Source of the DNA: Blastomonas fulva
GTDB lineage: Bacteria > Pseudomonadota > Alphaproteobacteria > Sphingomonadales > Sphingomonadaceae
Reading direction: 5' to 3'
DNA length: 64,000 bases
Assembly (NCBI RefSeq): GCF_003431825.1
Contig: NZ_CP020083.1
Location: 2,642,501-2,706,500, forward strand
Position numbers and translations under genes: made by a program. The notes beneath the pieces were generated by a model. That model made no database searches and had not been told where the DNA came from. It saw nothing but the letters and a program-made list of their open reading frames with translations. Position 1 is the first letter of the stretch, and every line of letters begins with the position of its first letter. Below, piece by piece: positions 47,855 to 64,000 of this stretch.

Positions 47855-48169
47855 ATGCTGATTCAGTTCAATACCGACAACCGTATCACCGGTGACGAGG
47901 ACCTGGCCGCGCAGGCGGAGGAGATCGTGACATCGCGGCTCAACCGGTTCGCCAGCAGGCTCAGCCGGGTCGAAATCCACCTTGCCGATGTCAACGGCCC
48001 GCGCGGCGGTAGCGATGATATCGTGTGCACCCTGGAAGCGCGCCCTGAGGGCGGCAAACCGGTGACAGTGAAGGGCAATGCAGGGCAGACTGAAACTGCG
48101 GTGCGTGATGCATCGGACAAGATGCAGGCGCTGCTCGAAACCCATTTCGGCAAGCTCAGGACCCACTGA
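47855..48169 (+). CDS. Short HPF/RaiA-type ribosome hibernation factor
   Basis: 104 residues, the short form. The beta-alpha-beta pattern of HPF is visible: MLIQFNTDNRITGDEDL, IVTSRLNRFASRLSRVEIHL, DIVCTLEARPEGGKPVTV and TAVRDASDKMQALLETHFGK. It lacks the long C-terminal dimerisation domain. Such proteins bind the ribosome in stationary phase. It is the last core gene before the terminator and the tRNA-like fragment. Confidence 0.85.
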   Translation: MLIQFNTDNRITGDEDLAAQAEEIVTSRLNRFASRLSRVEIHLADVNGPRGGSDDIVCTLEARPEGGKPVTVKGNAGQTETAVRDASDKMQALLETHFGKLRTH

Positions 48170-48219: not shown

Positions 48220-48255
48220 AAGGGTGCTGTCCCGGCAAGGGCAGCGCCCTTTTTG
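48220..48255 (+). terminator. Strong Rho-independent terminator after the hpf-like gene
   Basis: The 14-bp stem 48220-48233 pairs with 48238-48251 (two G-T wobbles, loop GGCA) and runs directly into TTTTT. It is 50 nt downstream of the hpf-like stop and marks the end of the core segment. Confidence 0.88.
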
Positions 48256-48304
48256 CTGGATCAAGCTACCGCGATTTCCGGCTCTATATCGATGCTGGAA
48301 TAAA

Positions 48305-48327
48305 TGGTCGGGGAGAGAGGATTCGAA
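48305..48327 (-). other. tRNA-Pro 3'-end fragment, candidate attachment site
   Basis: Read on the minus strand, this segment is TTCGAATCC...CTCCCCGACCA: T-loop, T-stem 3' arm, acceptor 3' arm, discriminator A and CCA. From memory it matches the 3' end of alphaproteobacterial tRNA-Pro, whose first base is C. Upstream (48328-48345) the similarity decays, and no 5' half with the complementary CGGGGAG is present. It is therefore not a functional tRNA, but fits a duplicated attachment site left by integration. Confidence 0.6.
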
Positions 48328-48402
48328 GGTCCTCGACCGATGCCTTGGACACCTAGGCTATCCAATCGCCAGACCAGCGAACCTGGCGATGTGAAAAAGC
48401 TT

Positions 48403-50496
48403 TCAAGGCGACACGATCACGCGCGCGCGGCTCAGATTGGGAATGCGAGCGTACGTGGAAGACGCATTACCATCTCGCTCGGATTCAACCTTCAATGTCA
48501 CGAAAAAGGTGCCCGGCGTATCATAATGCCATTGCTTCCTAATCTGCATCTTTGCGCTGGGCGTGTCTGTCAAATTAGCTGAAACAAAGCGGCCCGTGCC
48601 TTCAAATTCCCACGAAGCGTCTACGATTTTGCCGGCGCCTGGCGGAACCTCTATCTCTGCGACCAGTTCGAATGGCTCGCCGGTTTTGACATAAGCCTTG
48701 TCTGCACCTCCGATACGGAGCGTCACGATCGGTTGAATACCTTTGCGATCGCTGGCGTTCCCGGCCAAGATTACCTGCCCGTCATCGACGCGGTACCCGC
48801 TGTTGGCGGGTGGCGGAACGCCGCGCTCGACCCACGCGGCCACATCACGCAGAGCCTGCTGCAGCAGTGGCGTGTAATTGATGACTCTGGTTGGTGCACC
48901 TTCCCACTCGCTGGCACCATGCAGGGCATTCTCGGCGAACCACAACCGGTACCTGTTGCCTGCATCCGCACCGTAAATCTGTTCGAATCGCTGGCGGTAC
49001 CAGTCCGATTGCCAGGCGAACGCCTCCCGGTCCAGCGTCGCGCCAACCACGATGATTTTGCCATTGAACTTGCCGGTCGGAACCGTGCCGGCTGCCCCCA
49101 TCGCAAACAGGGGGCCAAGATTGACCGGTCGCTGGGGATAGACCGGCTGGCCGTCTGGACGCCGAAACTGATCCCAGACAGGGTATTCCGGACCAGGCAC
49201 TTGGTGCCGGTGGTAGGTCTGCGCGGCAAGAAAATTGCTGTTGTCGATCCGCACTGCATCGCCCGGCTTCAGCCTTGCCAATGTCTTGCTGTCGACGACG
49301 CCCAGGGTCACGATATTGCCTTTGATAGCGCGCAGCGCCAGCCGCTGGCCCGCGGCTTCGCCGGACAGAATCACGAGATCGCCGCCCAGGAAGTCGACGC
49401 CCGGCGGCGTGTCGCGCAAGGCAATGGCAACAGGGCGCGCAGATCCGTCCTTCACTGCCGATTGCCATGCCAGTTCCGCCGTTCCCCGCGACGTCCCGGG
49501 AATGCGGACATCGGGAACGCCGCGCGCGACGGCTGCTTCTTCCCCCAGCGGTTGCTCCACCGTGGTATCGAACTGCAGACGCGCATTCTTGAAGGCTTCG
49601 GGCCGATCGAATCCCAGATACCCCGGCTTGGTCCAGAAATCGCTGAAATAGCCTGGGTCCGCCATCACCATGCCTTGATACAGCGCAGTAAACGCATGCA
49701 CTCCCATGGTCTTGTGGCCGAACCAGCTTTTGAGCGGAAATCCCATTCTCGTGACCTCGCGCAGTGCACCCGCTTCCTCTGCGTTCAGCCCCGCATAGGG
49801 ATCACCGCTACCGCCCACGTCCATGGCATCGGCGATCTGCGCCAGCCGGTCTTCCAGGATACGCATCGCGTGCATGCGCACTGCAAAGACATTCGGCGCG
49901 GCCATTGGAGTTCCCAGCACGAATGGGACGGCACCGTCCCATACCCCGACTGTGTTTTCCATGCTGCCGAGGGTCCGGTATCCGCCGCCACTGCCGCCAT
50001 AAAGATAGCCATAGGTGCGATGCGGGCCATACATCTGCGCTGCAAGGGTGCGAGAGAATATCGCGGCGGCCGCGTTGGCGCGGAACGCCCCGATGGTAGG
50101 GTCAGGTCTGAATGCGGGGCCGGCGATCGTACTGGTGCCGCCGCCGTTAGTCTCGATGAAATAGGCGCCCGAACTGATCGAGAAGCCGATCTTGTCGTCG
50201 CCCGGTGCCTGGGCCAGGTTTTCGTTGTCCGGCACCGGCGTGACATATTGGAAAAACCGGTTCTGGTATTGTGCCTTGTCCGGAAAATAGAAGGAAAACC
50301 GCATGTCGGTTCCCTTGAAGCCGCCATGGACATAACGGTGCCGGACAGGCGCAGCGCGCCATTCGTCGACGTCGACATAAGGTTCGGCGAACATCGGGTC
50401 TTGTGCCGGGGCAGACGCAGGGTCCTGCTGCTGCTGCCCGCATAAAGGGGACGCCGTCATGGAGACTGCCACCGCAACCAGAAGCCCGTTCTTCAT
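48403..50496 (-). CDS. Tannase/feruloyl-esterase-like hydrolase with C-terminal beta-sandwich
   Basis: 697 residues from ATG 50496. A signal peptide (GLLVAVAVSMTASPLCG) precedes a large alpha/beta-hydrolase region. The nucleophile is Ser169 in LYGGSGGGYRTLGSME. Candidate Asp and His partners are in VGATLDREAF and ENALHGASEW. The last 110 residues (YVKTGEPFELVAEIEVPPGAG, WHYDTPGTFFVTLKVESERDG) look like a PKD-type beta-sandwich. It may cleave an ester outside the cytoplasm. The start overlaps the stop of the short acyl-CoA dehydrogenase, so it is the last gene of that operon. Confidence 0.8.
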   Translation of the reverse strand: MKNGLLVAVAVSMTASPLCGQQQQDPASAPAQDPMFAEPYVDVDEWRAAPVRHRYVHGGFKGTDMRFSFYFPDKAQYQNRFFQYVTPVPDNENLAQAPGDDKIGFSISSGAYFIETNGGGTSTIAGPAFRPDPTIGAFRANAAAAIFSRTLAAQMYGPHRTYGYLYGGSGGGYRTLGSMENTVGVWDGAVPFVLGTPMAAPNVFAVRMHAMRILEDRLAQIADAMDVGGSGDPYAGLNAEEAGALREVTRMGFPLKSWFGHKTMGVHAFTALYQGMVMADPGYFSDFWTKPGYLGFDRPEAFKNARLQFDTTVEQPLGEEAAVARGVPDVRIPGTSRGTAELAWQSAVKDGSARPVAIALRDTPPGVDFLGGDLVILSGEAAGQRLALRAIKGNIVTLGVVDSKTLARLKPGDAVRIDNSNFLAAQTYHRHQVPGPEYPVWDQFRRPDGQPVYPQRPVNLGPLFAMGAAGTVPTGKFNGKIIVVGATLDREAFAWQSDWYRQRFEQIYGADAGNRYRLWFAENALHGASEWEGAPTRVINYTPLLQQALRDVAAWVERGVPPPANSGYRVDDGQVILAGNASDRKGIQPIVTLRIGGADKAYVKTGEPFELVAEIEVPPGAGKIVDASWEFEGTGRFVSANLTDTPSAKMQIRKQWHYDTPGTFFVTLKVESERDGNASSTYARIPNLSRARVIVSP

Positions 50497-51461
50497 CCTG
50501 TCGTCTCCATCACTGCACGGCCTGCAATCTCTTCCCAGTGGAAGGCGTCGCCACCCAGTGCGCAGTTCAGCATCGCGCGCTTGAAAAACAGGTGGCAGGG
50601 GTGCTCCTGCGTCAGCCCGATGCCACCGTGCAGCTGGATGCAATCCTCGGCAATCAGCCGGAACGCTTCGGTGCAGTGCGTCTTCAGGCTACCCATCAGC
50701 GCCAGCGATGGCCTTCCAGCCGCGCGATCCCATAGCAGGGCTTCGGCGGCGCTGTGGGCAATCTTGAGGTCGGCAACGCGGTGCTTCAGCGCCTGGAACA
50801 TCGCCAGTGGCCGGTCGAACTGGCGGCGTGTCTTGAGATAGTCGACCGTCATCGCCAGCGCCGCTTCCGCCCCGCCCAGCGAATCCGCAGACAAGGCCAG
50901 CAGCATCTGCAGGAGCAGCGAAGTCCGAAGTTGCTCTGCGGCTTGCCCATGCGCGATGACCACACCATCGCTGGCGGATGGCGGCCGCACATCGAACAGC
51001 CGCCGCGTCTCGTCCCATGTTGGCTGGGCAGCGATCGTGCATCGGTCGAGCGGGACAACGCGGATTGCACCCTGCCGGGTCACCAGGACATGGCTGGCGA
51101 CATCCGCATCGGGGACCGCCTCGATCACATCGTCCTCGGTCGGCAGCGCCAGCGATGCGGTCATCTTCCCGCCTGCCATCGCACGGTCCAGCAGGTCTGA
51201 CTGTCCTGTCGCGGCCAGCGCCTCGACCAGCATCATCTGGGCGATCACCGGTCCCGGCACCAGTGCCCGGCCCAGCTCGTAATGGATAATGGCGTGCGCC
51301 TCGCTGCCCAGGCCGAGCCCGCCCTGCGCCTCGGGCACGGTCATCATGAACCAGCCCATTTCGCTGAGCTTCGCCCAGTTGCCTGCTGCATCGCCTGTCG
51401 CGCTGGATGCCCCAAACGCCTTGCGCGCGCTGTCGCGCAGTTCGGTGCGGTCCATGCTCAT
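50493..51461 (-). CDS. Acyl-CoA dehydrogenase, short subunit (pair 1)
   Basis: 322 residues from ATG 51461, which overlaps the preceding stop (ATGA); Met at 51455 is an alternative. The C-terminal domain is clear (TRRQFDRPLAMFQALKHRVAD, CIQLHGGIGLTQEHPCHLFF), while the middle FAD/substrate domain is shortened. About 320 residues beside a 390-residue partner is the pattern of heteromeric dehydrogenases such as FadE28-FadE29 of steroid degraders. It probably forms a mixed tetramer with the upstream gene product. Confidence 0.88.
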   Translation of the reverse strand: MSMDRTELRDSARKAFGASSATGDAAGNWAKLSEMGWFMMTVPEAQGGLGLGSEAHAIIHYELGRALVPGPVIAQMMLVEALAATGQSDLLDRAMAGGKMTASLALPTEDDVIEAVPDADVASHVLVTRQGAIRVVPLDRCTIAAQPTWDETRRLFDVRPPSASDGVVIAHGQAAEQLRTSLLLQMLLALSADSLGGAEAALAMTVDYLKTRRQFDRPLAMFQALKHRVADLKIAHSAAEALLWDRAAGRPSLALMGSLKTHCTEAFRLIAEDCIQLHGGIGLTQEHPCHLFFKRAMLNCALGGDAFHWEEIAGRAVMETTG

Positions 51462-52630
51462 GCCACCCAACTCTTGGGTTCGCGCGGCATTTCCAACATG
51501 CGCTCGGCGATGATGTTGCGTTGAACCTCTTCGCTGCCTCCTGCGATGGTCCAGGCATAGCTGTTCATGAAATCGGCCATCCAGTTGCCGGTGTTGAGAT
51601 CGCCGAACGTGATCGGCTTGCGATATTGTTCCAAAAGCCCGCCGACACGCACGCCCAGGTCGGCCCATGCGCGCAGGGTGCGCGAATAGCTGTTCTTCAC
51701 GATCGAGGCATCGCCGACCTGTTCGGCACCGGTGATCCGGTTGTGCAGGAACCGGTCGGCAAGCGCGCAGGTCGCATCGACCTGCGCCGACAGCCGGCCG
51801 AGTTCGCGCAGGACCCCCGCGTCGCCCGCCTTGCCGGATTTGCGGATAAGATCAGTGAGCAGGCCCATGCTGCCGCGCATGCGATATCCCAGTTCCATCA
51901 GCGTCAGGCCCCGTTCGGATGACAAGGTTGCCTGCGCGACCGCCCAGCCTGCGCCTTCCTCGCCAACCCGTTCTGCGAGCGGCACCTCGACATTGTCGAG
52001 GAAGATTTCGGCAAACTCCTCATCGCCCTGAATCTGGTGGATGGGCCGCACGGTGACACCCGGCGCCTTCATGTCCATCAGCAGATAGGTCAGCCCGGCC
52101 TGCTTTGCGCCTTCGGACGAGGTGCGCACCAGCAGCAGGCATTTGTCCGCATATTGCGCCATGGTCGACCACAGCTTCTGCCCGTTGACAACATATACGT
52201 CACCGCGCCGCTCCCCGCGGGTCTTGATCGCGGCAAGGTCCGATCCTGCCCCCGGTTCGGAGAAACCCTGGCACCAGGTCTCCCCCTCGAGAATGGCGGG
52301 AAGATAGCGTGCACGCTGAGCATCGTTGCCGCACTCCTGAAGGGTTGCAAACACATGATAGGTCGAGACGAAAGATAGAAGCAGCCGCGGGGCGTCCGCG
52401 CGGGCCAGTTCCTCATAGATCACTTTCTGCTCGGCCAGGCTGCGGCCACCGCCTTGCCAACCTGCAGGCCAGTGCGGGATGGCATAGCCTGCTGCCACCA
52501 GCTTGCCGAACCATTGCCGCTGGCCGGTCACGAAGGCCTCATGCGTGGCGGCCTCACGCCAGTCTTTCGGCGCATTGCCTGCCAGCCAGGTGCGCACGTT
52601 CTCCCGCAACGTCTCCAGCGCCGCGCTCAT
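51458..52630 (-). CDS. Acyl-CoA dehydrogenase, long subunit (pair 1)
   Basis: 390 residues from ATG 52630. The three-domain fold is evident: GYAIPHWPAGWQGGGRSLAE, the FAD-binding GFSEPGAGSDLAAIKTRGER, VVNGQKLWSTMAQYADKCL and the C-terminal GGSEEVQRNIIAERMLEMP. It introduces a 2,3-double bond into an acyl-CoA, with electrons to ETF. It overlaps the Rieske gene on one side and the short subunit on the other by four bases each. Confidence 0.93.
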   Translation of the reverse strand: MSAALETLRENVRTWLAGNAPKDWREAATHEAFVTGQRQWFGKLVAAGYAIPHWPAGWQGGGRSLAEQKVIYEELARADAPRLLLSFVSTYHVFATLQECGNDAQRARYLPAILEGETWCQGFSEPGAGSDLAAIKTRGERRGDVYVVNGQKLWSTMAQYADKCLLLVRTSSEGAKQAGLTYLLMDMKAPGVTVRPIHQIQGDEEFAEIFLDNVEVPLAERVGEEGAGWAVAQATLSSERGLTLMELGYRMRGSMGLLTDLIRKSGKAGDAGVLRELGRLSAQVDATCALADRFLHNRITGAEQVGDASIVKNSYSRTLRAWADLGVRVGGLLEQYRKPITFGDLNTGNWMADFMNSYAWTIAGGSEEVQRNIIAERMLEMPREPKSWVA

Positions 52631-52941
52631 GCCGCCACCTCGATCATGTCGCCGATCACGCGCACCGCAAATGTGCGGATCGGAAGCGTGGCAGGCTTGC
52701 TCAAGGCTTCGCCAGTGGCAAGATCGAAGCGTGCCCCATGCGCGGGGCAGGCGATGCGCCCCCATTTTACCTTGCCGCACGCCAGGGGCTCTTCAAGGTG
52801 CGAGCAGCGGCTTGCAATGGCGTATATCGCCCCTTCATCCCTGCACAGCAGCACGTCGGTGCCCTGCAGGGTGACGAGCCTGGTCTCGCCTTCGCCCAGG
52901 TCTGCCAGCGGCAGGGCGGCGCAGAATGTCGTATTTGCCAT
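52627..52941 (-). CDS. Rieske-type [2Fe-2S] ferredoxin
   Basis: 104 residues from ATG 52941; ATG 52953 would add four residues. The cluster ligands are Cys46-x-His48 (RCSHLEEPL) and Cys65-x2-His68 (ACPAHGARFD). It is a free-standing electron-transfer protein of the NirD/ferredoxin type. No oxygenase large subunit or reductase lies beside it in the window. It is the first gene of the minus-strand operon, divergent from the second acyl-CoA dehydrogenase pair. Confidence 0.92.
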   Translation of the reverse strand: MANTTFCAALPLADLGEGETRLVTLQGTDVLLCRDEGAIYAIASRCSHLEEPLACGKVKWGRIACPAHGARFDLATGEALSKPATLPIRTFAVRVIGDMIEVAA

Positions 52942-53071
52942 ACCGGTTGGCATAATCCACGCGGCTTCGGTCGCAAAGCCAGCCCCCTGCGACATCGCCC
53001 CGGCAATCTCTACGCCGGCACGGGGTTGCAAGCCTTGCTGGTGTGGCGATCTGCACGCTACCCCATGCGGC

Positions 53072-54217
53072 ATGAATTTCGAATGGACCCCGGAAGAAGA
53101 CGCTTTTCGCAAGCGCCTGCAGGCATTCCTCGCAACAACGCTTCCCGAGGATTGGGAGCGGTTCTCGCAACACGGTCCCGCATCGCCTGTTCTGACCCGG
53201 TATGCCGAGACGTTCTGCGGAAAACTGGCGCAGGAGCGGTTGCTGACTCCGCATTGGCCCAAGGAGATCGGCGGCGAAGGGCTTGATCCCTGGCACCAGA
53301 CGATCCTGGCCGAAGAAATGTGGGTCGCCGGCGAACCGCGCGGTGGCCAGTACATGAACATCAACTGGATCGGCCCCACGCTGATCAAGTACGGCAGCAA
53401 GGCGCAGCAGGAGCGTTACCTGCCGCCCATCGCCGAAGGGCGTGCGCTGTGGTGCCAGGGCTTTTCAGAGCCTGGTTCGGGTTCCGACCTTGCCTCGCTT
53501 CGCACCCGCGCGGTGCTGGAGGGTGAGCATTACCGTGTTACCGGGCAGAAGATTTGGACCAGCTATGCAGGGCTCGCCGACACGTGCTTTCTGCTGTGCC
53601 GGACATCGGAAGACCGCAAGCGGGGGATTTCCATCCTGCTGGTTCCTATGGACACGCCGGGCATCACCGTGCGGCAGATCCCTTCGCTAATCGGCGAGGG
53701 CGACATCCACGAGGTGTTCTTCGACGACATGCTGGTGCCTGCCGACTCGCTGTTCGGTGCCGAGGGACAGGCGTGGGAGATCATTGCATACAGCCTGGTC
53801 AACGAACGCCTGGGCATTCCGCGCTACAGCCTCGCGCGTGCCGCGCTGGATCGGGCAGTTAGCGTGCTGGTGCAGAACGGTGGCTGGAGCAGCGATGCCG
53901 TGAAGATCGAGGCGGCGCATTGTGCTGCCCTGTGCGAAGCGGCGCGCACGTCAAGCTATGCCATCGTCACGACCCGCGCACGCGGTCAGCAGGTCGGCCC
54001 GGAAAGTTCGGTGGCACGCTTTGCCACGGTGATGGCCGAGCGTCGCGTTGCGGAATTTGTTGTGGAATATCTGCCCGAGGCGCTTGCCGATGCGCACCCT
54101 TATCTCAAGATGCACCACCAGCGCGGCATCGTTGCCGGCATTGCCGCCGGAGCTGCAGAAATCCAGCTTAACATCATCGCCAACGATGTGCTGAAGCTGC
54201 CCCGGGAACCAAGATGA
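53072..54217 (+). CDS. Acyl-CoA dehydrogenase, long subunit (pair 2)
   Basis: 381 residues from ATG 53072 (MNFEWTPEEDAFRKRLQAF). The FAD and substrate regions are typical: GFSEPGSGSDLASLRTRAVL, RVTGQKIWTSYAGLADTCFL, VPADSLFGAEGQAWEIIAYS and the end AEIQLNIIANDVLKLPRE. Its layout is close to pair 1, so the two pairs may be paralogues acting on successive intermediates. It is followed by its short partner after 31 nt. Confidence 0.93.
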   Translation: MNFEWTPEEDAFRKRLQAFLATTLPEDWERFSQHGPASPVLTRYAETFCGKLAQERLLTPHWPKEIGGEGLDPWHQTILAEEMWVAGEPRGGQYMNINWIGPTLIKYGSKAQQERYLPPIAEGRALWCQGFSEPGSGSDLASLRTRAVLEGEHYRVTGQKIWTSYAGLADTCFLLCRTSEDRKRGISILLVPMDTPGITVRQIPSLIGEGDIHEVFFDDMLVPADSLFGAEGQAWEIIAYSLVNERLGIPRYSLARAALDRAVSVLVQNGGWSSDAVKIEAAHCAALCEAARTSSYAIVTTRARGQQVGPESSVARFATVMAERRVAEFVVEYLPEALADAHPYLKMHHQRGIVAGIAAGAAEIQLNIIANDVLKLPREPR

Positions 54218-54248
54218 CCCGAACCCCGATGACAGGCGAGACGCGCTG

Positions 54249-55160
54249 ATGGATCTTTCACTCAACGCCGATCAGGTGGCCATTCTCGATTCGCTGGAAT
54301 CGCTGACGCGGCCCTATGCCGGCGTGTCCCTGCACGAAACCGGCTTCTCCTTGACCGATGGCGCACTTGACCGCGAGCTCCAGCAGGGCGGGTTTCTGGA
54401 TGTCGCCTCAGACCCTGATCTGGGTATGGTGACGGCTGCAATCGTTGTCGAACGACTGGCACGATTGCCGCAGGCCACAAGGGCGGCGCTTGCGTCGATC
54501 ATCGCCCCGATCCTCAAGCTGAATACACAGACGCCTTTTTGCATCGTCGCTGGTGACCAATTGCAGCGCCCCTTGCGGTTCTTGGGCGCAGGAGCCACGG
54601 TGGTTGTTGTCACGGACACCGTCAGCAGCTTCACCGCAACAGCATCGCAAGTCCGCGCTGAACCTGATGCGCTATATGGCTACCCCGTCGGCACATTGGT
54701 GGAAATGCCTTCTGACCGGGAAGAGCATGATGTCGGCAGCGACGTATTCATGACCCACTGGCGTATCGCGCTGGCTGCGGAATCCGCAGGGCTTCTCGCT
54801 GCCGCGCTGGACAGCGTTTGCGCCTATACGGCGCAGCGGCACCAGTTCGGACGGCCATTGGCCAGCTTCCAGGGGATGAGGCACCGTCTGGCAGAGGCGA
54901 AGGTGCGGACCAACGGCGTCTATTGGCTTGCGATAAGAGCGGGTGCTACCCTTAATCCGGCAGATGCTGCGCTGGCCGCGTTCCACGCGCAGGAGTCGGC
55001 GCGCCAGGTGGTGTATGATCTGCACCAGTTCATGGGGGGCATGGGGATGACGCTCGAACATCCACTGCATTTGTGGACCTACAGGCTCAAGCTGCTGGCC
55101 AGCGAAATGGGCGGACGCGGCAACAATGCGCTGGCGGCCGCCCGCTCCATTTGGGGCTGA
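54249..55160 (+). CDS. Acyl-CoA dehydrogenase, short subunit (pair 2)
   Basis: 303 residues. The middle domain is reduced, and the clear match is the C-terminal half: QRHQFGRPLASFQGMRHRLAE and DLHQFMGGMGMTLEHPLHLW. It resembles the short subunit of pair 1 and should pair with the upstream 381-residue protein. It ends ten bases from the convergent desaturase-type gene. Confidence 0.88.
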   Translation: MDLSLNADQVAILDSLESLTRPYAGVSLHETGFSLTDGALDRELQQGGFLDVASDPDLGMVTAAIVVERLARLPQATRAALASIIAPILKLNTQTPFCIVAGDQLQRPLRFLGAGATVVVVTDTVSSFTATASQVRAEPDALYGYPVGTLVEMPSDREEHDVGSDVFMTHWRIALAAESAGLLAAALDSVCAYTAQRHQFGRPLASFQGMRHRLAEAKVRTNGVYWLAIRAGATLNPADAALAAFHAQESARQVVYDLHQFMGGMGMTLEHPLHLWTYRLKLLASEMGGRGNNALAAARSIWG

Positions 55161-55170
55161 GAGTCTACCT

Positions 55171-55941
55171 TTATTCCGCAGTGGCCGTTCTGTCAGGCGT
55201 GCCGGGTCGGTCCTTGATCTTCACGAAATCCGCCTCGAACTTGGGACGCATGGTGCCGCACAGCCGGTCCCATACGGTGGTATAGCCGCCGAAATTGGCG
55301 GTGAAGTATTTGTGGTGCTGGTCGTGGAAGGTTGCGGTGATGAACCACTTTGTTGCCCAGCTCTTGTTCCACCAGCGCGGGAAAAGTTCATAGCCTGAAT
55401 GGACATACAGCCCCATGATGATGTTGGTCGGGCCGATCAGCAGCATCGTTTCGGCATGCACTGTCAGCAGCGCGGTAAACAACGGCACGAATCCGCCGTT
55501 GATCAGCGATTCCAGCGGGTTGACCGACAGCGTCGTCAGCAAGTTGGGCGATGTGGACTTGTGGTGCAGCTTGTGGATCCAGCTGTAGAACGGCTCCTTG
55601 TGCATGCCCCGGTGCAGCCAGTAGAACCATGTGTCGAACAGGATAAAATACGCAGCGTATTCCAGCGCGATCACCCACCATTCCACCGGGCCACTTTTGA
55701 AGCTGATCCAGCCATTGGCGGTCAGCCACTGCGTCGATCCACCGATCAGCAGTGTGGAGACAACAAGATTGATCGTCCCGAACATCGCCTCGTTCCGGAA
55801 AACCGACCATTTGAAGCCCCTTGGCTGGATCTTGCGGGCCTTGAAGAATCCGGTGAAGATCCCGGCCAGCAGCCCGGTGACGACGAACAGGGCAAGCCAT
55901 ATCTGCAGGGCCTTCTCGCCCGTTATCATCGTCTCAAACAC
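55171..55941 (-). CDS. Fatty acid hydroxylase / sterol desaturase family membrane protein
   Basis: 256 residues, GTG start at 55941, six bases after GAGGAGG. About five hydrophobic helices are present. Three histidine clusters for a di-iron centre are visible: H110-x3-H114 (WLHRGMHKE), H123-x2-HH127 (IHKLHHKS) and H206-x2-HH210 (FHDQHHKY). Such enzymes hydroxylate or desaturate lipids or terpenoid-like molecules using O2. The natural electron donor is not obvious; the Rieske ferredoxin in this region is a candidate. The gene overlaps the MFS gene by eight bases. Confidence 0.9.
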   Translation of the reverse strand: MFETMITGEKALQIWLALFVVTGLLAGIFTGFFKARKIQPRGFKWSVFRNEAMFGTINLVVSTLLIGGSTQWLTANGWISFKSGPVEWWVIALEYAAYFILFDTWFYWLHRGMHKEPFYSWIHKLHHKSTSPNLLTTLSVNPLESLINGGFVPLFTALLTVHAETMLLIGPTNIIMGLYVHSGYELFPRWWNKSWATKWFITATFHDQHHKYFTANFGGYTTVWDRLCGTMRPKFEADFVKIKDRPGTPDRTATAE

Positions 55942-57184
55942 TGGTATCCTCCTCTATATCTGCTGGCTTGGGCAGGCTGAAAAGCGCGGCGCTGCTGAGC
56001 AGCAGGAGCGCGATCGCCAGCCAGAAAAAGCGGTCATATCGGCCCGTCGCGTCGAAAATGAGCGAGGCGGCCAGAGGGCCGATGGCAGTTCCGATCGACA
56101 GCGCGGCAAGAAGCCCGCCATATAGCGCGCCAAAGCTGTTCAGCCCGAAGAACCGGGTGGTGAGATAGACGATGACATCCACCTCCGCGCCCAGTGTCAG
56201 CCCCAACATGATCGCGACCAGCGCGGGGGCAGGAGCGTAATCCTCCCCAAACAGCAGCATCAGGACCGCGATAATGGGGAGCAGGAACACGATTGCGCCG
56301 ACATGCGAAGCGCGGAAGCGGTCGATGAGATATCCGGTCACCAGCCTGCCGACCACCGACGAAAGACCGATCAGCGATGCCAGCCACGCTGCTCTGGTCG
56401 GCTCTATCCCCCATCCAGCAAGGATCGGCATGAACTGGTAGTTCAGGGCAACGATGGTGAAGGTGAAAAAGAGGCTGGCCAACAACAATCGGACATAGAC
56501 CGGTGACCGCAGGCCATCGCGGAAGCCGACGCCGCTCGCCGCAGGTGGACGTGGCAAAGGTGATGCCTTGGCCGTGCGACCGGCATCGCGCGCGCCTCTG
56601 AAGAAGAGGAATACGACCGGCAGCACGACCGCCATCCAGATCAATCCATGCCAGACGAATGCGGTCCTCCAGCCATAGTCGCCGATCAGACGGGTCGCGA
56701 GCGGCGGGAACACGAATTGCGCGACCGATGCGCCGCACAAAGTGATGGCAAATGCCGTCCCGCGTGACGCGGTGAACCGCGTGGCGACCGCGCTGGTCCA
56801 CACCGTCGCCTGGACGGGAAGGGCAACCAGCGTCATGATCCCCCACATCAGATACCAGTTCGTCAGGCTGCCGGAGGATGTGCTGAACAGCGCAAAGCCC
56901 AGGCACACCAGAACCACACCGGCAAGCCCCAGCCTGCGCGAGCCGAACCGGTCGACCAGCATACCCACCGGGACGGCCAGCAGTGCCTGCACCAATATCG
57001 CAAAGGTGAACGCCCCGGTGAACTGCCCGCGCGTCCAGCCAAACTCCTTGGTGACCGGAAGGATATAGGGATAGATGCCATAGATGTGGATAACGCTGAC
57101 CGAATAGCCGAACATCGCCGCCACCGGCAGCATGAAATGGCGGCGCCATTCGGTTGTTGCGCCGGGCAAGACGGCCTGGTTCAC
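55934..57184 (-). CDS. MFS transporter (monocarboxylate/OFA-like)
   Basis: 416 residues with twelve hydrophobic helices. GMLVDRFGSRRLGLAG is the MFS A-motif between helices 2 and 3, and GYLIDRFRASHVGAIVFLLP repeats it in the second half. The EFGWTRGQFTGAF segment is common in the oxalate/formate and monocarboxylate branch. It probably imports an organic acid that the neighbouring CoA-transferase activates. The ATG overlaps the CoA-transferase stop (ATGA). Confidence 0.88.
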   Translation of the reverse strand: MNQAVLPGATTEWRRHFMLPVAAMFGYSVSVIHIYGIYPYILPVTKEFGWTRGQFTGAFTFAILVQALLAVPVGMLVDRFGSRRLGLAGVVLVCLGFALFSTSSGSLTNWYLMWGIMTLVALPVQATVWTSAVATRFTASRGTAFAITLCGASVAQFVFPPLATRLIGDYGWRTAFVWHGLIWMAVVLPVVFLFFRGARDAGRTAKASPLPRPPAASGVGFRDGLRSPVYVRLLLASLFFTFTIVALNYQFMPILAGWGIEPTRAAWLASLIGLSSVVGRLVTGYLIDRFRASHVGAIVFLLPIIAVLMLLFGEDYAPAPALVAIMLGLTLGAEVDVIVYLTTRFFGLNSFGALYGGLLAALSIGTAIGPLAASLIFDATGRYDRFFWLAIALLLLSSAALFSLPKPADIEEDTSV

Positions 57185-58347
57185 GACGCGCCCCGGGCCA
57201 TACCGATTTCCGCGAGGACTTCGTCAGTATGCGCGCCTGCCAGCGGCGTCTGGCCGGCGACCTTTCCGGGTGTTCTGGAAAACCAGGTCGGAACGCCCGG
57301 ATAGCGGACCGGCCCCTGGTCGGTCTCGATCGTCTCGAAGAAGTCGATGGCATTGAGGTGCGGATTGTCCATCAACTCATCGGTGGTGCGCAATGGCGCG
57401 GCCGGAATGTTGAGCGCGTTCAGCAGCTCAAGCCATTCCGCCGTCGTGCGCTGCAGAAACGTCTCACCCAGCAGGCTGTAGACCGTGTCGATCTGCTTTG
57501 CGCGCTGCTGCAGAGTTGCCATATCGGGCGTTGCCCAGGCAGGCTTCACCGCTTCGGTAAACAGCTTCCAGTGCTTGTCGTTGTAAATGAGCGCTGCAAC
57601 ATAACCGTCGGCCGTCCTGTAGGGCTTGCGGTTGCGTGATGCGGCGCGGTGATAATGCGCGGGGCCTAGCGGCGGCGTGAACATCGCGCCGTTGGCATGT
57701 TCGACCAGCATGAAGCTGGCCATCGTCTCGAACATGCCGATCTCCACTTCCTGCCCCTCGCCGGTGCGTTCCCGGTGGAACAGTGCAAGGATGGTTGCAT
57801 AGAGTGCGGTCAGCCCGGCGACCTTGTCGGCCATGATGGTGGCCACGAAGCCAGGCTCTCCGGTCATCAGCTGCTGGACATGCGGAATGCCGCATTCGGC
57901 CTGGATAGTGTCGTCATAAGCCGGCTTGTCGGCATCCGGTCCACGGCGGCTGTACCCGTAGCAATTTGTGTAGACGATGTCGGGTCTGATGGCCGCGACG
58001 GACGCATAATCGAAGCCGAGCCGGCCAATGGCCTTGGCGCGCATCGAGTGGATGAAGACGTCTGCCCCGGCGATAAGCCGGGTCAGCGCCTCCTTGCCTT
58101 CGTCGCTTTTCATGTCGAGCACGACGCTGCGCTTGCCGCGATTGACGTTGACGAACACGCCCGACATTCCTGGCACCGGGCCTTGCGAGATGTTGCGGGT
58201 GTCATCGCCCTGCGGCGGTTCGATCTTGATGACGTCGGCGCCCATGTCCGCCATGATTTGCGTGGCATAGGGGCCAAAGACCATGCTGGTCAGATCGATG
58301 ATGCGGATACCATCCAATGGTCCGCCATGCTTGGGTCTAACCGACAT
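57181..58347 (-). CDS. CaiB/BaiF family (class III) CoA-transferase
   Basis: 388 residues with GGAGG before the ATG. DGIRIIDLTSMVFGPYATQI, MADMGADVIKIEPPQGDD and NRGKRSVVLDMKSDEGKEAL are hallmark N-terminal motifs. The Asp in MADKVAGLTALYAT is in the position of the class III catalytic aspartate. It should move CoA from a donor thioester to an acid. It heads the operon CoA-transferase - MFS - desaturase. Confidence 0.93.
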   Translation of the reverse strand: MSVRPKHGGPLDGIRIIDLTSMVFGPYATQIMADMGADVIKIEPPQGDDTRNISQGPVPGMSGVFVNVNRGKRSVVLDMKSDEGKEALTRLIAGADVFIHSMRAKAIGRLGFDYASVAAIRPDIVYTNCYGYSRRGPDADKPAYDDTIQAECGIPHVQQLMTGEPGFVATIMADKVAGLTALYATILALFHRERTGEGQEVEIGMFETMASFMLVEHANGAMFTPPLGPAHYHRAASRNRKPYRTADGYVAALIYNDKHWKLFTEAVKPAWATPDMATLQQRAKQIDTVYSLLGETFLQRTTAEWLELLNALNIPAAPLRTTDELMDNPHLNAIDFFETIETDQGPVRYPGVPTWFSRTPGKVAGQTPLAGAHTDEVLAEIGMARGAS

Positions 58348-58511
58348 TCATGCCTCCATGTGCGGGGCAAGCGCTAACCGATCAATCCGGGCAAACCAAC
58401 GCCGTTGCAGCTTCGCCCCGCCGATATCGTCATGGCGGAGTGTTGAGGTGGCACCGGGCGGCTGCTAGCCCGCTGACGGCTGCATTTTTGGGCGCCGGTC
58501 GGAGCATCACC
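58348..58511. promoter_or_regulatory. Divergent promoter region, CaiB operon / CitE operon
   Basis: 164 bases separate two divergent operons and must contain both promoters. No clear consensus boxes or operator palindrome could be assigned by eye. No regulator gene lies nearby in the window. Confidence 0.4.
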
Positions 58512-59678
58512 TTGGACTTTTCATTGACAGACGATCAACAGACCATCCGCGACGCGGTGCTTGCCCTGTGCGCGCAGTTCTCTGATGACTACTGGTTGGA
58601 ACGCGACAATGACGGGGAGTTTCCGGTCGAATTTCATCAGGCAATGGCTCAGGCCGGATGGCTCGGCATCGCGATGCCCGAAGGCTGTGGCGGATCGGGG
58701 CTGGGCATTACCGAAGCGGCGATCATGATGCAGGCGGTAGCGGAATCGGGTGGCGGCATGACCGCAGCATCGTCCATCCATGGCCCGGTGTTCAGCATGG
58801 AGCCTATCATCGCATTCGGGACGCAGGAACAGCAGCAGCGGATGATCCCGCCAATCCTGTCCGGTGCGCAGAAGATGTGCTTTGCGGTGACCGAACCGAA
58901 CGTCGGACTGGACACCACCAAGCTGAAGACCCGGGCCGAACCGGGTGATGGCGGCTATCGTGTCAACGGCGAGAAGATCTGGATCACCAACGCGCATGTC
59001 GCCGACAAGATGATGCTGCTTGCGCGCACCACGCCGCTCGATCAGGTCAAACGCAAGACCGAGGGCCTGTCACTGTTTTACACGTCAATAGACCGCAGCA
59101 AGATCGAGCACCGGCTGATCCCGAAGATGGGGCGGCATGCAGTTGGGTCTAACATGCTGTTCATTAACGATCTTTTCATCCCGGAAGAGGACCGGATCGG
59201 CAACGAGGGCGATGGCTTTAAGATCATCCTGCAGGGCCTGAACCCTGAGCGCATCCTGCTGGGGGCAGAGGCGGTGGGGCTTGGCCGGGTGGCGATCAAG
59301 CGCGCGGCGCAATATGCCCGCGAACGCATTGTCTTCGACCGGCCCATCGGCATGAACCAGGGCATCCAGCATCCGCTTGCCAAGTGCTGGGCACAGCTGG
59401 AGGCTGCCAACCTGATGGTGCTCAAGGGCGCAACGATGTTCGACAAGGGCGAAGATTGCGGGGTCGAGGCCAACGCGGGCAAGTATCTGGCAGCAGAGGC
59501 AGGCTTCGAGGCATGCCACACAGCGATGCTGTCGATGGGCGGCATGGGCTATGCAAAGGAATATCATGTCGAGCGATACCTTCGCGAAGTGCTGATCCCG
59601 CGTACGGCTCCCGTCAGCCCGCACATGATCCTGAACTTCCTGGCCGAGAAGGTTCTCGAACTGCCGAAATCTTATTGA
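58512..59678 (+). CDS. Acyl-CoA dehydrogenase (fifth copy)
   Basis: 388 residues if translated from TTG 58512, which has GGAG seven bases upstream and matches the family N-terminus (LDFSLTDDQQTIRDAV). The upstream part of the frame from 58350 is not homologous. MPEGCGGSGLGITEAAIMM, FAVTEPNVGLDTTKLKTRAE, YRVNGEKIWITNAHVADKM and the end SMGGMGYAKEYHVERYL are typical. It first catalyses alpha-beta dehydrogenation, then CitE, CoA-transferase and hydratase genes follow in the same operon. Confidence 0.93.
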   Translation: MDFSLTDDQQTIRDAVLALCAQFSDDYWLERDNDGEFPVEFHQAMAQAGWLGIAMPEGCGGSGLGITEAAIMMQAVAESGGGMTAASSIHGPVFSMEPIIAFGTQEQQQRMIPPILSGAQKMCFAVTEPNVGLDTTKLKTRAEPGDGGYRVNGEKIWITNAHVADKMMLLARTTPLDQVKRKTEGLSLFYTSIDRSKIEHRLIPKMGRHAVGSNMLFINDLFIPEEDRIGNEGDGFKIILQGLNPERILLGAEAVGLGRVAIKRAAQYARERIVFDRPIGMNQGIQHPLAKCWAQLEAANLMVLKGATMFDKGEDCGVEANAGKYLAAEAGFEACHTAMLSMGGMGYAKEYHVERYLREVLIPRTAPVSPHMILNFLAEKVLELPKSY

Positions 59679-59694
59679 AAGGTCAGGGAGAAAG

Positions 59695-60588
59695 ATGACC
59701 ATGCCGACGCCACCAGCCCTCAAGATGCGCTCTTGGCTATTCGCACCGGGCGACAGCGCAAAGAAGATGGCCAAGGCCGCAGCCAGCAACGCCGACATTG
59801 CGCTATTCGATCTTGAGGATGCCGTCGCGACAGGCAACAAGCCGCTGGCGCGCCGGATGGTCCACGATTTCCTCGAAGCCAACGCTGGGGACCGCGCGCG
59901 TTTGTGGGTGCGGATCAACCCCTTCGACGGCCCGTACACACTGGCTGATCTGGCCGCCGTCATGCCCGCGCATCCCGGTGGCATCATGCTGCCCAAGGTC
60001 TATGGCCGCGCCGATGTCGACAGACTGCATCATTGCCTGTCAGCGCTTGAGGTGGCCAACGGCATCAAAGAAGGATCCACCCCGGTCATCGTGCTGATCA
60101 CCGAGACGGCAGAGGCGATGTTCCATACCGGCAGCTACAAAGGGGCTCCAAGGGTCGTGGCGCTGACCTGGGGCGCGGAGGATCTGGCCGACTCGATCGG
60201 CGCGAGCAGCAATCGCAATCCCGATGGCAGCTATGGCTTTACCTATGAACTGGCGCGCAGTCTGACCGTGCTGGGCGCAGCGACCGCCGGCGTTGCGGCA
60301 ATTGAGACGATTTCGGCGGATTTCAGTGATCTTGATGCCTTGCGTCTGCGTGCTGAGAAGGTGCGCCGTGATGGCTTTCGCGGGATGCTCGCGATTCATC
60401 CGGCGCAAGTCGATGTCATCAATGACGCATTCACGCCGAGCGCGGAGGAAATTGCGCAAGCCCGCGAGATCGTCGCGATCTTCGATGCCAACCCCGGGGT
60501 CGGGGCGATCGGCTACAAGGGCGGGATGCTCGACAGGCCGTATCTGTCGCGCGCGCAGCAATTGCTGGCGCAGGTGGCAGACGCGTGA
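59695..60588 (+). CDS. CitE-like acyl-CoA lyase (HpcH/HpaI family)
   Basis: 297 residues. RSWLFAPGDSAKKMAKA, IALFDLEDAVATGNK, LWVRINPFDGPYT and GIMLPKVYGRADVD match the CitE/malyl-CoA lyase/citramalyl-CoA lyase family. FRGMLAIHPAQVDVINDAF is the conserved C-terminal helix region. The stand-alone context without citrate lyase alpha or gamma subunits argues for CoA-ester cleavage, for example of a citramalyl- or malyl-type thioester. It overlaps the next gene by four bases (GTGA). Confidence 0.88.
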   Translation: MTMPTPPALKMRSWLFAPGDSAKKMAKAAASNADIALFDLEDAVATGNKPLARRMVHDFLEANAGDRARLWVRINPFDGPYTLADLAAVMPAHPGGIMLPKVYGRADVDRLHHCLSALEVANGIKEGSTPVIVLITETAEAMFHTGSYKGAPRVVALTWGAEDLADSIGASSNRNPDGSYGFTYELARSLTVLGAATAGVAAIETISADFSDLDALRLRAEKVRRDGFRGMLAIHPAQVDVINDAFTPSAEEIAQAREIVAIFDANPGVGAIGYKGGMLDRPYLSRAQQLLAQVADA

Positions 60589-61856
60589 CGATCAGCATCA
60601 GCGCTGCGGAGCTCGAACTTGCCCGGTTCGTCCAGCCGGGGGATGCCATCATGCTGGGCCAGGCGTGCGGCGAGCCGACCACGCTGATCGAGGCGCTGAT
60701 CGCGCAGGGGCAGGGCATTGGCGGTCTTGACGCCTTCATTGCTACAAGCTTTTCGGGCATTTTCACGCCTTCGACGGCAGATGCCTTCCGCCTGTCCAGC
60801 ATGGGGGCGATCGGCGCGTTGCGATCCATGAGCAAGGCGCATCGGCTCGGCGTTATCCCCTGCCATGTGGGGCAGGTCGCGCCGCTGATAGAGAGGGGGA
60901 TCATCGGCTGCGATGTCGCGATGGTGCAGGTCAGCCCCGCCGACGCACAGGGTAACCATAGCTTCGGTCTGATCAGCGACTACGTCCAAGCCGCGGTGGC
61001 GAAGGCGCGTGTCGTTATCGCAGAGGTCAACGCGCAGGTGCCGTACACGCTGGGCGAGACGCTGCCGGCATCGCGGATCGATGTAGCGGTGCATGTCGAT
61101 CGCCCGCCGGTCGAGGTGATGCCCGCCGCGATTTCTGCGACCGACGAGGCTATTGCCCGCCATTGTGCCGAGTTCATCGGGGATGGCGCAGTCATCCAGA
61201 CCGGTGTCGGCGCGGTGCCCGATGCGATCCTGCGGCTGCTGCATGACCGCAAGGATCTGGGCGTGCATTCGGGCATGCTGGGCGATGGCCTGGTCGATCT
61301 GGCCGATGCAGGCGTTCTGACCAACGCGCGCAAGGAAATCGATCGCGGCGTATCGATCAACGGCGCGCTGATCGGCACCCGGCGGCTTTACGATTTTGCG
61401 CATCGCAATCCATCCGTGCGCATGACGCGGACGGCCTACACGCATGACAGCACAGTGCTGGCACAGCTGTCACGGCTGGTGACGGTCAATTCCGCGATGG
61501 AGGTCGATCTGACCGGGCAGGTCAATGCCGAGCAGTCGGGCGACATGTATCTCGGCGGCACGGGCGGGCAGCTCGATTTCGTGCGGGCTGGGGTGCGCTC
61601 GCCCGGCGGGCATTCGATCATCGCCTTGCCCGCGACTGCCAGGGGGGGGACGATCAGCAAGATCGTTGCGGCACTGTCCGGGCCGGTGACAACCGCGCGC
61701 AGCGAGGTGGACATCATCGTGACCGAATTCGGCGCGGCGCAATTGCGTGGCCAGCCGCTCGCGGAGCGGGCACGCCGGATGGTGGCAATCGCGCATCCGG
61801 ATTTTCGCGAGGCGCTGGCGCGCGCTGCGCATGGCATCGAGCAGCGGGGATTCTAG
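60585..61856 (+). CDS. Acetyl-CoA hydrolase / 4-hydroxybutyrate CoA-transferase family
   Basis: 423 residues, GTG start overlapping the CitE-like stop. VQPGDAIMLGQACGEPTTLI, LGVHSGMLGDGLVDLAD, GQLDFVRAGVRSPGGHSI and the C-terminal VTEFGAAQLRGQPLAERARR with AIAHPDFRE are signatures of the Cat1-type family. Members transfer CoA between acids such as 4-hydroxybutyrate or itaconate. Adjacency to a CitE-like lyase recalls the itaconate ripA-ripC pair. Confidence 0.9.
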   Translation: MTISISAAELELARFVQPGDAIMLGQACGEPTTLIEALIAQGQGIGGLDAFIATSFSGIFTPSTADAFRLSSMGAIGALRSMSKAHRLGVIPCHVGQVAPLIERGIIGCDVAMVQVSPADAQGNHSFGLISDYVQAAVAKARVVIAEVNAQVPYTLGETLPASRIDVAVHVDRPPVEVMPAAISATDEAIARHCAEFIGDGAVIQTGVGAVPDAILRLLHDRKDLGVHSGMLGDGLVDLADAGVLTNARKEIDRGVSINGALIGTRRLYDFAHRNPSVRMTRTAYTHDSTVLAQLSRLVTVNSAMEVDLTGQVNAEQSGDMYLGGTGGQLDFVRAGVRSPGGHSIIALPATARGGTISKIVAALSGPVTTARSEVDIIVTEFGAAQLRGQPLAERARRMVAIAHPDFREALARAAHGIEQRGF

Positions 61857-61859
61857 GCT

Positions 61860-62627
61860 ATGTCTGATGCGGTTCTCTACACGGTCGATGGCGATGGCAT
61901 CGGGGTCATCACCATCAACCGGCCCGAACAGCGCAACTGCCTGTCCCGGGAGGTCCGTGAGGGGCTGCGCGCGGCATGGCAACAGTTCGAAGAAGATGAT
62001 GCAGCCAAGATCGCCATCCTGACGGGGACCGGGCAAAAGGCTTTCTGCGCGGGTGGTGATCTGAAGGAAATGGTGGAAACCGGAATGAAGGTTCCCCCAC
62101 GCGACATGTTTCCAGTGCCGTATGAGACGATCACGCTCTCTAAGCCGACAATCGCGGCGGTCAACGGCGTGGCATTTGCGGGCGGCTGGATGATCGCGCA
62201 GGGGTGCGACCTGTGCGTCGCCTCGACCACCGCACGCTTCGCGATTACCGAGGTGAAGGTGGGCAGGGGGTCGCCCTGGGCGGCGCCGCTCATCCACATG
62301 ATCCCGCAGCGGATCTTCATGGAGATCGTGCTCACCGGCAAGCCGATCACCGCCCAGCGCGCGTACGAGATCGGTCTGGTGAACCGCCTTGCGGAACCCG
62401 ATGCGCTGATCGACGCCGCACTCGACTTGGCGCGTGAGGTAATCGAAGGCGCGCCGCTTTCTGTGGCAGCAGCCCGGGCGAGCGTGATGCTGGCGACGGA
62501 AATGGGCCGCTCAGCCGCGCTCGATGCGGCGTGGGCGGCGCATGAGGAGGCGTACAACAGCAAGGACGCGCAGGAAGGACCACGCGCCTTTGCCGAGAAG
62601 CGCAAACCAGTGTGGAAAGGGCGCTAA
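61860..62627 (+). CDS. Enoyl-CoA hydratase/isomerase (crotonase) family
   Basis: 255 residues, four bases after the CoA-transferase. GVITINRPEQRNCLSREV, GTGQKAFCAGGDLKEM (oxyanion hole), NGVAFAGGWMIAQGCDLCVA and RFAITEVKVGRGSP form the crotonase core. The Glu in ITEVKVG is a candidate catalytic acid. It would hydrate the product of the acyl-CoA dehydrogenase in this operon. Its TAA stop overlaps the stop of the convergent SnoaL-like gene. Confidence 0.92.
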   Translation: MSDAVLYTVDGDGIGVITINRPEQRNCLSREVREGLRAAWQQFEEDDAAKIAILTGTGQKAFCAGGDLKEMVETGMKVPPRDMFPVPYETITLSKPTIAAVNGVAFAGGWMIAQGCDLCVASTTARFAITEVKVGRGSPWAAPLIHMIPQRIFMEIVLTGKPITAQRAYEIGLVNRLAEPDALIDAALDLAREVIEGAPLSVAAARASVMLATEMGRSAALDAAWAAHEEAYNSKDAQEGPRAFAEKRKPVWKGR

Positions 62628-63181
62628 GGCTTGCTCGGCGCGCGATGGTTGACCAGCGGGCGCTGGTAGGACGGATCGCTGCTGTCCCGCGCTGACCGGC
62701 CGTTGGCGGAAATATCCGGCACATCGCCAAAGGGTGGCGGCAGCGACGGCTGAATGCAGCTCCATTCGATGACGTTGGTGCGCAGCGCGATCCGCCAGCT
62801 GCCATCGCGTCTTTCCAACCGGTCGATATAGCGGCCGCCTGCCAGCATCACCGTTTCGCCGCCGCCCTCTTCCCAGGGGTGGTTGCGTCCGATGAACTGG
62901 TAATAGCATTCGCTGTGCGCGGTATCCCCGGCGATATCGATATAGTGGTTGAGCAGGACATGGTGTGTCAGCACCTGACCTGCCTCGTGCAGTGGCTTGG
63001 CCCATTCCCAGCAGCCAGCGACATCGCCGACATAAGGCCCGGCGGCAATCACCGCATCGGTGTGGAAGGCTGACAGGAACAGCGCGCGGTCGAACCGGTC
63101 CATGCCCCGGCAGAACCGGAACAGGCAGTCATGGATCTCCTGCCGGTCGACCAGCATAAGCAGTCGGGCGTCATCGGTCAT
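62624..63181 (-). CDS. SnoaL/NTF2-like protein
   Basis: 185 residues from ATG 63181, which overlaps the SDR stop (ATGA). LVDRQEIHDCLFRFCRGMDR, DRALFLSAFHTDAVI and YIDRLERRDGSWRIALR form the cone-shaped NTF2-like fold common in SnoaL_4 hydratases, isomerases and dehydratases of aromatic and steroid pathways. Polar His and Tyr residues are present but the reaction cannot be read from sequence. The region after residue 150 is a disordered tail. Confidence 0.85.
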   Translation of the reverse strand: MTDDARLLMLVDRQEIHDCLFRFCRGMDRFDRALFLSAFHTDAVIAAGPYVGDVAGCWEWAKPLHEAGQVLTHHVLLNHYIDIAGDTAHSECYYQFIGRNHPWEEGGGETVMLAGGRYIDRLERRDGSWRIALRTNVIEWSCIQPSLPPPFGDVPDISANGRSARDSSDPSYQRPLVNHRAPSKP

Positions 63182-64000
63182 GCCTTTGTCCGTTCGGCAT
63201 GGGCCCATTTGAAGGTTTCGCCCAGATGATCGGCCATGCCTGAGGGATAGGGCGGGAAGACCCATTGGTCCGCACTTTTGCGGATCGCATCGAGATTGCC
63301 AGCGACGGCCTCGGGCGACCAGTCGGACTGCCACACCCCCTTGCTCTCGACCGTCCAGGCGCGCGCCATCCGTCCTCCGCCCGCGACATAATGCTCGCCC
63401 GATACGCTGCAGCTTTCGTGCGCCAGCCAGGCCACCATCGGGGCAACAAGCTCTGGCTCAAGCGGAGGATATGCGGTGGTATCCAGGCCATCTGCCATGC
63501 GGGTTACGGCGGCTGGCGCAATTGTGTTCGACAGGATGCCGTGGTCGCCGCCTTCCAGCGCGATGACATTGTTGAGCCCCATCAGGCCGGCCTTCGACAT
63601 GCCGTAATTGACGGTGGTCTTGCTGCCATAGAGCCCGCTGCAGGACGTCGTCAGCACGACCCGGCCATAATTGGCCGTGATCATGTGTGGCATTGCGGCC
63701 TTGGCAAGATAGAAGCCACCCTTGAAATGCACGTCGGTCACCGCATCGAAATCCTCGATGCTGAGTTCGGCGATGGTGCCGTAGCGGACATTGCCCGCAT
63801 TGTGGATGAGGATGTCGATGCGGCCCCAGGTGTCGATCGCGCACTGGATGATCGCGGCGGCTCCGGCGGCCGATGCCACCGATTCAGCGCAGGCGACCGC
63901 CTCGCCACCTGACGAGAGGATTTCGCCAACAACCTCATCTGCCGGGTTGGAGATGATATCATCGCCCCGCGATGCGCTGCCATTGTCGTTAACCACGACC
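63178..64000 (-). CDS. Short-chain dehydrogenase/reductase (5' end beyond window)
   Basis: The frame is open to position 64000 (VVVNDNG is the second beta strand), so the Rossmann glycine motif is cut off. The visible NNAG-type region is IDILIHNAGNVRYG. The catalytic Ser and Tyr-x3-Lys are in VLTTSCSGLYGSK and NYGMSKAGLMG. A C-terminal extension (SDWSPEAVAGNLDAIRKSAD) is longer than in small SDRs and resembles multifunctional-type 3-hydroxyacyl-CoA dehydrogenases. It oxidises or reduces a hydroxy/keto group with NAD(P). Confidence 0.9.
   Translation of the reverse strand, partial: VVVNDNGSASRGDDIISNPADEVVGEILSSGGEAVACAESVASAAGAAAIIQCAIDTWGRIDILIHNAGNVRYGTIAELSIEDFDAVTDVHFKGGFYLAKAAMPHMITANYGRVVLTTSCSGLYGSKTTVNYGMSKAGLMGLNNVIALEGGDHGILSNTIAPAAVTRMADGLDTTAYPPLEPELVAPMVAWLAHESCSVSGEHYVAGGGRMARAWTVESKGVWQSDWSPEAVAGNLDAIRKSADQWVFPPYPSGMADHLGETFKWAHAERTKA

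Follow-up and report, generated by a model that had tools for sequence, protein, structure and literature searches.

Islander-type tDNA-borne genomic islands (PMC4383910) combine an intact tRNA gene with a displaced piece of that gene pointing the same way, and enclose accessory DNA between the two. Here we describe such an island in Blastomonas fulva T2, whose genome of 4,123,210 bp lies in two contigs; its left end falls within a 64-kb stretch of the chromosome (C1, 3,977,381 bp), C1:2642501-2706500, which is called the window below. Window positions count from the first base of this stretch, while positions prefixed C1 refer to the chromosome. The locus is a real, precisely bounded catabolic island at tRNA-Pro(CGG), a variant of a well-known kind. 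It is unusual in three respects: no integrase was found in it, its catabolic cargo is large and its gene order is circularly permuted. The features at the left end are the following:

47855-48169, plus strand: hpf/raiA-like ribosome hibernation factor, the last shared gene left of the island (84-89% protein identity in 7/8 congeners; PDB match to a ribosomal subunit interface protein, E 8.9e-16).
48222-48254, plus strand: terminator-like hairpin and T-run after hpf, read from the sequence; a similar GC-rich hairpin lies 3' of hpf in 7/7 congener loci.
48301-48327, minus strand: displaced tRNA-Pro(CGG) 3' end with TTTA, the putative distal attachment-site repeat, an exact copy of C1:2810129-2810155.
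48328-64000, no strand: left 15.7 kb of the island, which by the repeat geometry continues to C1:2810132, beyond the window.

Positions 48305-48327 of the minus strand reproduce the last 23 nt of tRNA-Pro, from the T-loop to CCA, without a 5' half, and ARAGORN detects no tRNA anywhere in the window. A search of the window finds the 23-mer at this one place, and none of 100 shuffles gives a match at up to 3 mismatches. At the same threshold it is found at four places in the whole genome (a reversed control pattern at none): two exact ones, the scar and an intact tRNA-Pro(CGG) at C1:2810133-2810209, both on the minus strand, and the ends of tRNA-Pro(TGG) and tRNA-Pro(GGG), with 1 and 2 mismatches, respectively; no further copy lies within the island. 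The original prediction had read the scar as a tRNA-Pro 3' end lacking its 5' half and had expected an intact tRNA-Pro to the right, on the same strand and with the same 23-nt end. The ARAGORN result and the exact copy bear out the first claim, and the genome does hold the matching gene, 119.3 kb away. Because TTTA after CCA is common to both copies, the exact repeat amounts to 27 bp, and the copies differ immediately 5' of the T-loop. TTTA also follows the CCA of tRNA-Pro in 6/8 congeners and therefore may be native sequence. The two ends are thus those of an Islander-type island, with an intact tRNA gene at one and a 3' fragment in the same orientation at the other.

The interval between the repeats measures 119,305 bp and is 94% coding, with 112 genes called by a heuristic caller and the right end at C1:2810132. 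The island has a GC content of 0.620, compared with 0.650 for a core sample of 164 kb, and 12 of 13 island windows exceed in tetranucleotide distance the maximum of seven flanking windows, which belong to that core sample. Eight Blastomonas-group genomes served as congeners, and hpf was found in seven of them; among 13 hpf loci in named genomes, seven belong to Blastomonas or to Sphingomonas-named kin. Three of the congeners are presumably Blastomonas natatoria DSM 3183 (G002), strain 35-24ZXX (G005) and strain KR-99 (G008). All seven loci keep hpf and have other DNA to its right, as expected from the sharp core/accessory boundary that had been proposed here, and the junction of hpf with the hydrolase side is absent from 7/7. 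At the other end, the thyA side of tRNA-Pro (thyA by PDB match) is kept in 8/8 congeners, and what comes after tRNA-Pro differs from B. fulva in all eight, so that the interval is accessory and absent from the relatives at this site (8/8 tRNA-Pro loci, 7/7 hpf loci). The comparison with relatives that had been suggested for 48403-64000 was made with the left 15.7 kb and with C1:2786501-2806500, 20 kb near the right end, and both parts are accessory in congeners: matches of at least 2 kb to both occur in G005 only, at a different site, and other congeners have shorter matches to the tested parts, including one 0.85-kb gene in 8/8.

Related insertions are present in the genus. B. natatoria (G002:C6:90341-136039, loci L120-L122) carries a 45.7-kb island at the same tRNA-Pro(CGG), with a 46-nt exact tRNA fragment downstream, a tyrosine integrase beside the tRNA and four other scanned genes without a Pfam match. 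The DNA right after tRNA-Pro in G008 matches G002 from 45,746 bp on, at 93.5%, and the two genomes form a filled/empty pair. In G007 (G007:C13:25616-34215, locus L124), an 8.5-kb element is bounded by tRNA-Pro(GGG) and, downstream, by an exact 46-nt duplicate of the 3' end of that gene. An integrase gene lies on the side of the fragment, and the element also encodes a DUF3987 protein and an AAA/SMC-like ATPase. These two elements thus mark tRNA-Pro genes as integration sites in the genus.

The order of the island genes, numbered g048 to g159 from the left, was compared with that in 12 homologous stretches, with an identity of at least 50% required. Four of these stretches, those of G005, G028, G173 and G032, include both g147-g151 and g048-g053, parts that are opposite island ends in B. 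fulva, and in 4/4 the two parts are joined: g048 lies 59 bp from g151 in G028 and 924 bp from it in G173, g049/g050 adjoin g151 in G005 (g050 at 1.2 kb), and g052 adjoins it in G032. The stretches of V4, RAC03, G034, G177, G107, G016, G145 and G078 lack one or both parts and are silent on the join. Since the island ends are neighbours in all four relatives, the gene order is circularly permuted. The longest colinear chain is longer when the order is read as a circle than as a line: 46 against 33 of 77 genes in G005 (24 of 2000 block shuffles reach the circular value), 47 against 32 of 63 in G028 (9/2000) and 34 against 19 of 41 in G173 (1/2000). Shorter stretches give 46 against 33, 46 against 30, and 20 against 16. 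The permuted order suggests a circle opened at the attachment (att) site inside tRNA-Pro.

We therefore consider it likely that a circular DNA of about 119 kb with steroid-type catabolic genes recombined with the 3' end of tRNA-Pro(CGG) in an ancestor of B. fulva. The attachment core would have been the 23 nt from the T-loop to CCA, perhaps with TTTA; recombination would have restored a complete tRNA gene on one side, and the scar beside hpf would be the original tRNA 3' end, displaced across the length of the island. The circle would have been opened between g151, now its last conserved gene (with the tail g152-g159), and g048. Of single events, integration of a circle with its att site between the g151 side and g048 most simply accounts for the repeat, the geometry and the permuted order together. 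The integrase may have been lost or supplied in trans.

Several observations weigh against this reading. The tyrosine recombinase family PF00589 has 25 matches genome-wide and none within the island, so that the integrase expected near the predicted tRNA-Pro did not materialize and, unlike in an Islander-type island, none lies between the ends. A tblastn search of the island with 20 of these 25 integrases returned one stretch (best E 0.046), which is not a credible remnant, and with the G002 and G007 integrases the best E value, 0.17, fell outside the island, with none below E 1 inside. Among the seven congener hpf loci and eight tRNA-Pro loci, no genome has hpf beside tRNA-Pro without the island. 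On the side of gene order, the G005 homologue of g048 lies 55 kb from g151, the rotation in G032 is within chance (circular 9 against linear 5 of 10; 333/2000 shuffles), and the four clusters share ancestry and therefore are not independent tests. In the V4 and RAC03 plasmids, the sequence read past g048/g049 contains no homologue of g151, and no tRNA-Pro-like core was found at the g151/g048 junction in the stretches of five relatives, where the best match, with 5 mismatches, is a tRNA-Gln and the next has at least 6. Finally, ordinary excision and integration keeps gene order, so the circle probably arose in a different way. It may, for instance, have been a plasmid or derived from one, which is plausible given the related blocks on Sphingobium megaplasmids.

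Per-gene Pfam tables cover 90 of the 112 island genes, and the other 22 were included in a pooled scan of which 25 of 122 families were listed. Within this scope no recombinase, transposase, relaxase, transfer or mobilisation family is present, nor any replication or partition family; the transfer genes of an integrative and conjugative or mobilizable element and the replication and partition genes of an integrated plasmid are both missing there. With no recombinase or transfer gene found, the island is therefore probably fixed. Elsewhere in B. fulva, four other tRNA genes have a PF00589 match within 1 kb (near 328, 1870, 2923 and 3892 kb). As a separate observation, 15 of the 25 PF00589 places, on C1 and C2, are two genes repeated at identical scores, a 316-aa (amino-acid) frame seven times and a 329-aa frame eight times, and the stretch around one repeated copy (L063) matches plasmid stretches annotated with an IS91 family transposase and an integrase.

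The lack of any recombinase or credible remnant in the island is also what would be seen if a catabolic plasmid or circle had been integrated by RecA recombination of the Campbell type across the short tRNA-Pro 3' end, with never an integrase involved. Such an event would give the same geometry and require no lost gene, it would open the circle at an arbitrary shared sequence, which fits the permuted order, and the homologous blocks on Sphingobium megaplasmids, one of them about 13.6 kb from parB and repA genes, would be an apt source. Nevertheless, we regard it as distinctly unlikely: with its 27 bp the repeat comes close to the minimum length for RecA recombination, it resembles an integrase att site, congeners use tRNA-Pro genes with an integrase, and no replication or partition family appears among the 90 genes scanned singly. 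A stepwise assembly would start from a small element that inserted at tRNA-Pro and gave rise to the scar; the catabolic genes would have been added afterwards, through several insertions or through block moves that chanced to place g151 and g048 at the ends. This could account for the shuffled order of the middle of the island relative to all relatives and for g152-g159, the 10-kb tail beside tRNA-Pro, which has no counterpart at 50% identity or more in the 12 compared stretches. It requires, on the other hand, a separate block swap with breakpoints exactly at the two ends of the island, there is no further copy of the 23-mer inside and the 90 tables show no transposase; we hold it to be unlikely.

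The chromosome around the island has itself been rearranged, which bears on whether the scar might be a by-product of the event that brought hpf and the tRNA-Pro region together instead of a trace of integration. An M13 peptidase (PDB match) follows hpf in 7/7 congener loci, and its B. fulva copy is at 3759-3761 kb, 1.07 Mb away; the conserved block that congeners carry either right after tRNA-Pro or no more than about 6 kb from it sits at 3308.9 kb in B. fulva. Six of seven congeners gave this match, and in the remaining one, G004, the contig ends after 6.5 kb. These differing neighbours of hpf and tRNA-Pro mean that chromosomal rearrangement also happened here, and as no empty site with joined flanks was found, rearrangement is needed besides integration; the two neighbourhoods were joined in the B. 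fulva lineage, before or after the island entered. That rearrangement by itself produced the scar is nonetheless highly improbable, as a simple inversion does not make a direct repeat of a tRNA 3' end flanking DNA absent from both congener loci. In B. fulva a gene that we take to be YihY adjoins the block that follows tRNA-Pro in congeners, and one that we take to be YkuD adjoins the M13 peptidase, both names being our own readings of the sequences. A model of two inversions, which predicted YihY beside YkuD in congeners, was rejected: YkuD was found in 4/8 and YihY in 7/8, with no adjacency within 1.5 kb.

The cargo within the window is catabolic in character and is made up as follows, coenzyme A being abbreviated as CoA:

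48403-50496, minus strand: g048, first island gene, weak PKD match below the Pfam cut-off; its homologue adjoins the g151 homologue in G028 and G173.
50493-52630, minus strand: g049-g050, short and long acyl-CoA dehydrogenase-like pair (g049 by Pfam; both through annotated homologues on the RAC03 plasmid).
52627-52995, minus strand: g051, Rieske ferredoxin (Pfam).
53072-55160, plus strand: g052-g053, acyl-CoA dehydrogenase-like pair (annotated RAC03 plasmid homologues).
55171-57184, minus strand: g054, fatty-acid-hydroxylase family protein, and g055, major facilitator superfamily transporter (Pfam).
57181-58347, minus strand: g056, CoA transferase (homologue on the Sphingobium RAC03 plasmid).
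58512-62627, plus strand: g057-g060, acyl-CoA dehydrogenase, CoA ester lyase, acetyl-CoA hydrolase/transferase and enoyl-CoA hydratase (g059 by Pfam; all by RAC03 annotation and tblastn).
62624-64000, minus strand: g061, SnoaL-like protein (Pfam), and g062, short-chain dehydrogenase/reductase-like protein cut by the window end (N-terminal motif and pooled scan).

Among the families listed from the pooled scan are 15 short-chain dehydrogenases, 6 acyl-CoA dehydrogenases, 6 SnoaL-like proteins, 5 Rieske proteins, 4 CoA transferases and 4 AMP-binding ligases. The island also contains, at C1:2725734-2728780, a gene with the PSCyt3/PSD2-PSD5 domain set adjacent to a DUF1552 (HXXSHH) gene, and both lie near genes for cytochrome c', a high-potential iron-sulfur protein (HiPIP) and cytochrome b561; these domain sets are known mainly from Planctomycetes.

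Several island proteins point to a steroid-type substrate, and judging by these sequence likenesses the cargo is probably of that kind. g148 resembles 3-ketosteroid dehydrogenases (below the NCBIfam cut-off; PDB 3-oxosteroid 1-dehydrogenase, E 1.8e-84), g113 the bile acid 7-alpha dehydratase BaiE (E 7.2e-14) and g122 lipid-transfer thiolases, again below the cut-off, and g121 has ChsH2 domains. Two points count against such a substrate: the nearest solved structure to the Rieske protein g133 is a carnitine monooxygenase, and at the NCBIfam level a general thiolase alone passes the cut-off. Two sulfotransferase-family proteins (C1:2749735-2750904 and 2804897-2806060) and two proteins with alkyl-sulfatase dimerisation and metallo-beta-lactamase folds (C1:2774446-2775690 and 2808415-2809671) are encoded as well, which suggests sulfated substrates or intermediates. 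The 3-ketosteroid-dehydrogenase-like flavoprotein and the Rieske oxygenases, along with the BaiE-like SnoaL, ChsH2-domain and lipid-transfer-thiolase-like proteins, recall, by their description, the bile-salt and steroid catabolism genes of Sphingobium sp. Chol11 (PMC12175502).

At E<=1e-250 the left 15.7 kb is matched in 10 of 199 genomes of the family, B. fulva included, and in 8 of 96 genera. Related and largely colinear blocks lie on plasmid pBSY17_1 of Sphingobium sp. RAC03 and on a plasmid of Sphingobium sp. V4, and g057-g060 keep their island order on the two megaplasmids. Long plasmid matches have 73-79% identity, some short ones more, and no near-identical donor was among them. A plasmid origin of the whole island was considered and set aside, six pieces (C1:2690830-2806500) having matched plasmids only in part. 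Vertical inheritance from a Blastomonas ancestor was likewise rejected: the median identity of the G005 cluster is 72.9% (77 genes) against 86.5% for flanking proteins, of which there are only three, and a concatenated tree of 13 taxa (15 genes, many taxa partial) does not group B. fulva with G005 (support 0.977). Tree and identities give modest evidence against vertical descent, and the island may well have a horizontal origin.

The complete genome gives exact endpoints for a 119-kb catabolic acquisition. This suggests that tRNA sites can serve in sphingomonads as a route by which large catabolic blocks pass between megaplasmids and chromosomes. It is conceivable, though doubtful, that the steroid-type set of sphingomonads is a genetic circle openable at different points, at the tRNA-Pro att site in B. 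fulva, near g096/g097 in G005 and elsewhere in G028; it would then be a catabolic element that goes through a circular state with no recombinase of its own. A permuted order may record a circular stage and can be sought in other islands without an integrase, and searches that require an integrase would miss such islands. Literature searches returned no paper whose title or abstract opening describes this island or permuted islands without an integrase, and the words 'genomic island' and 'integrase' are absent from the text of a paper covering B. fulva T2 (PMC9505733).

The blocks on the RAC03 and V4 plasmids share with the island the largely colinear genes g048/g049-g072, at 57-85% protein identity, but they are carried by replicating megaplasmids, no tRNA gene is present in the stretches read and the g136-g151 part is not adjacent. 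The G002 island uses the same tRNA gene with the same geometry as that of B. fulva; it differs in its 46-nt repeat and its integrase next to the tRNA, and has no blastn match longer than 150 bp to the B. fulva island. Compared with the Islander type, the B. fulva island departs in having no tyrosine integrase and in carrying cargo in an order circularly permuted relative to homologous clusters, while it shares with that type the intact tRNA gene, the fragment in the same orientation and the accessory interval between them.

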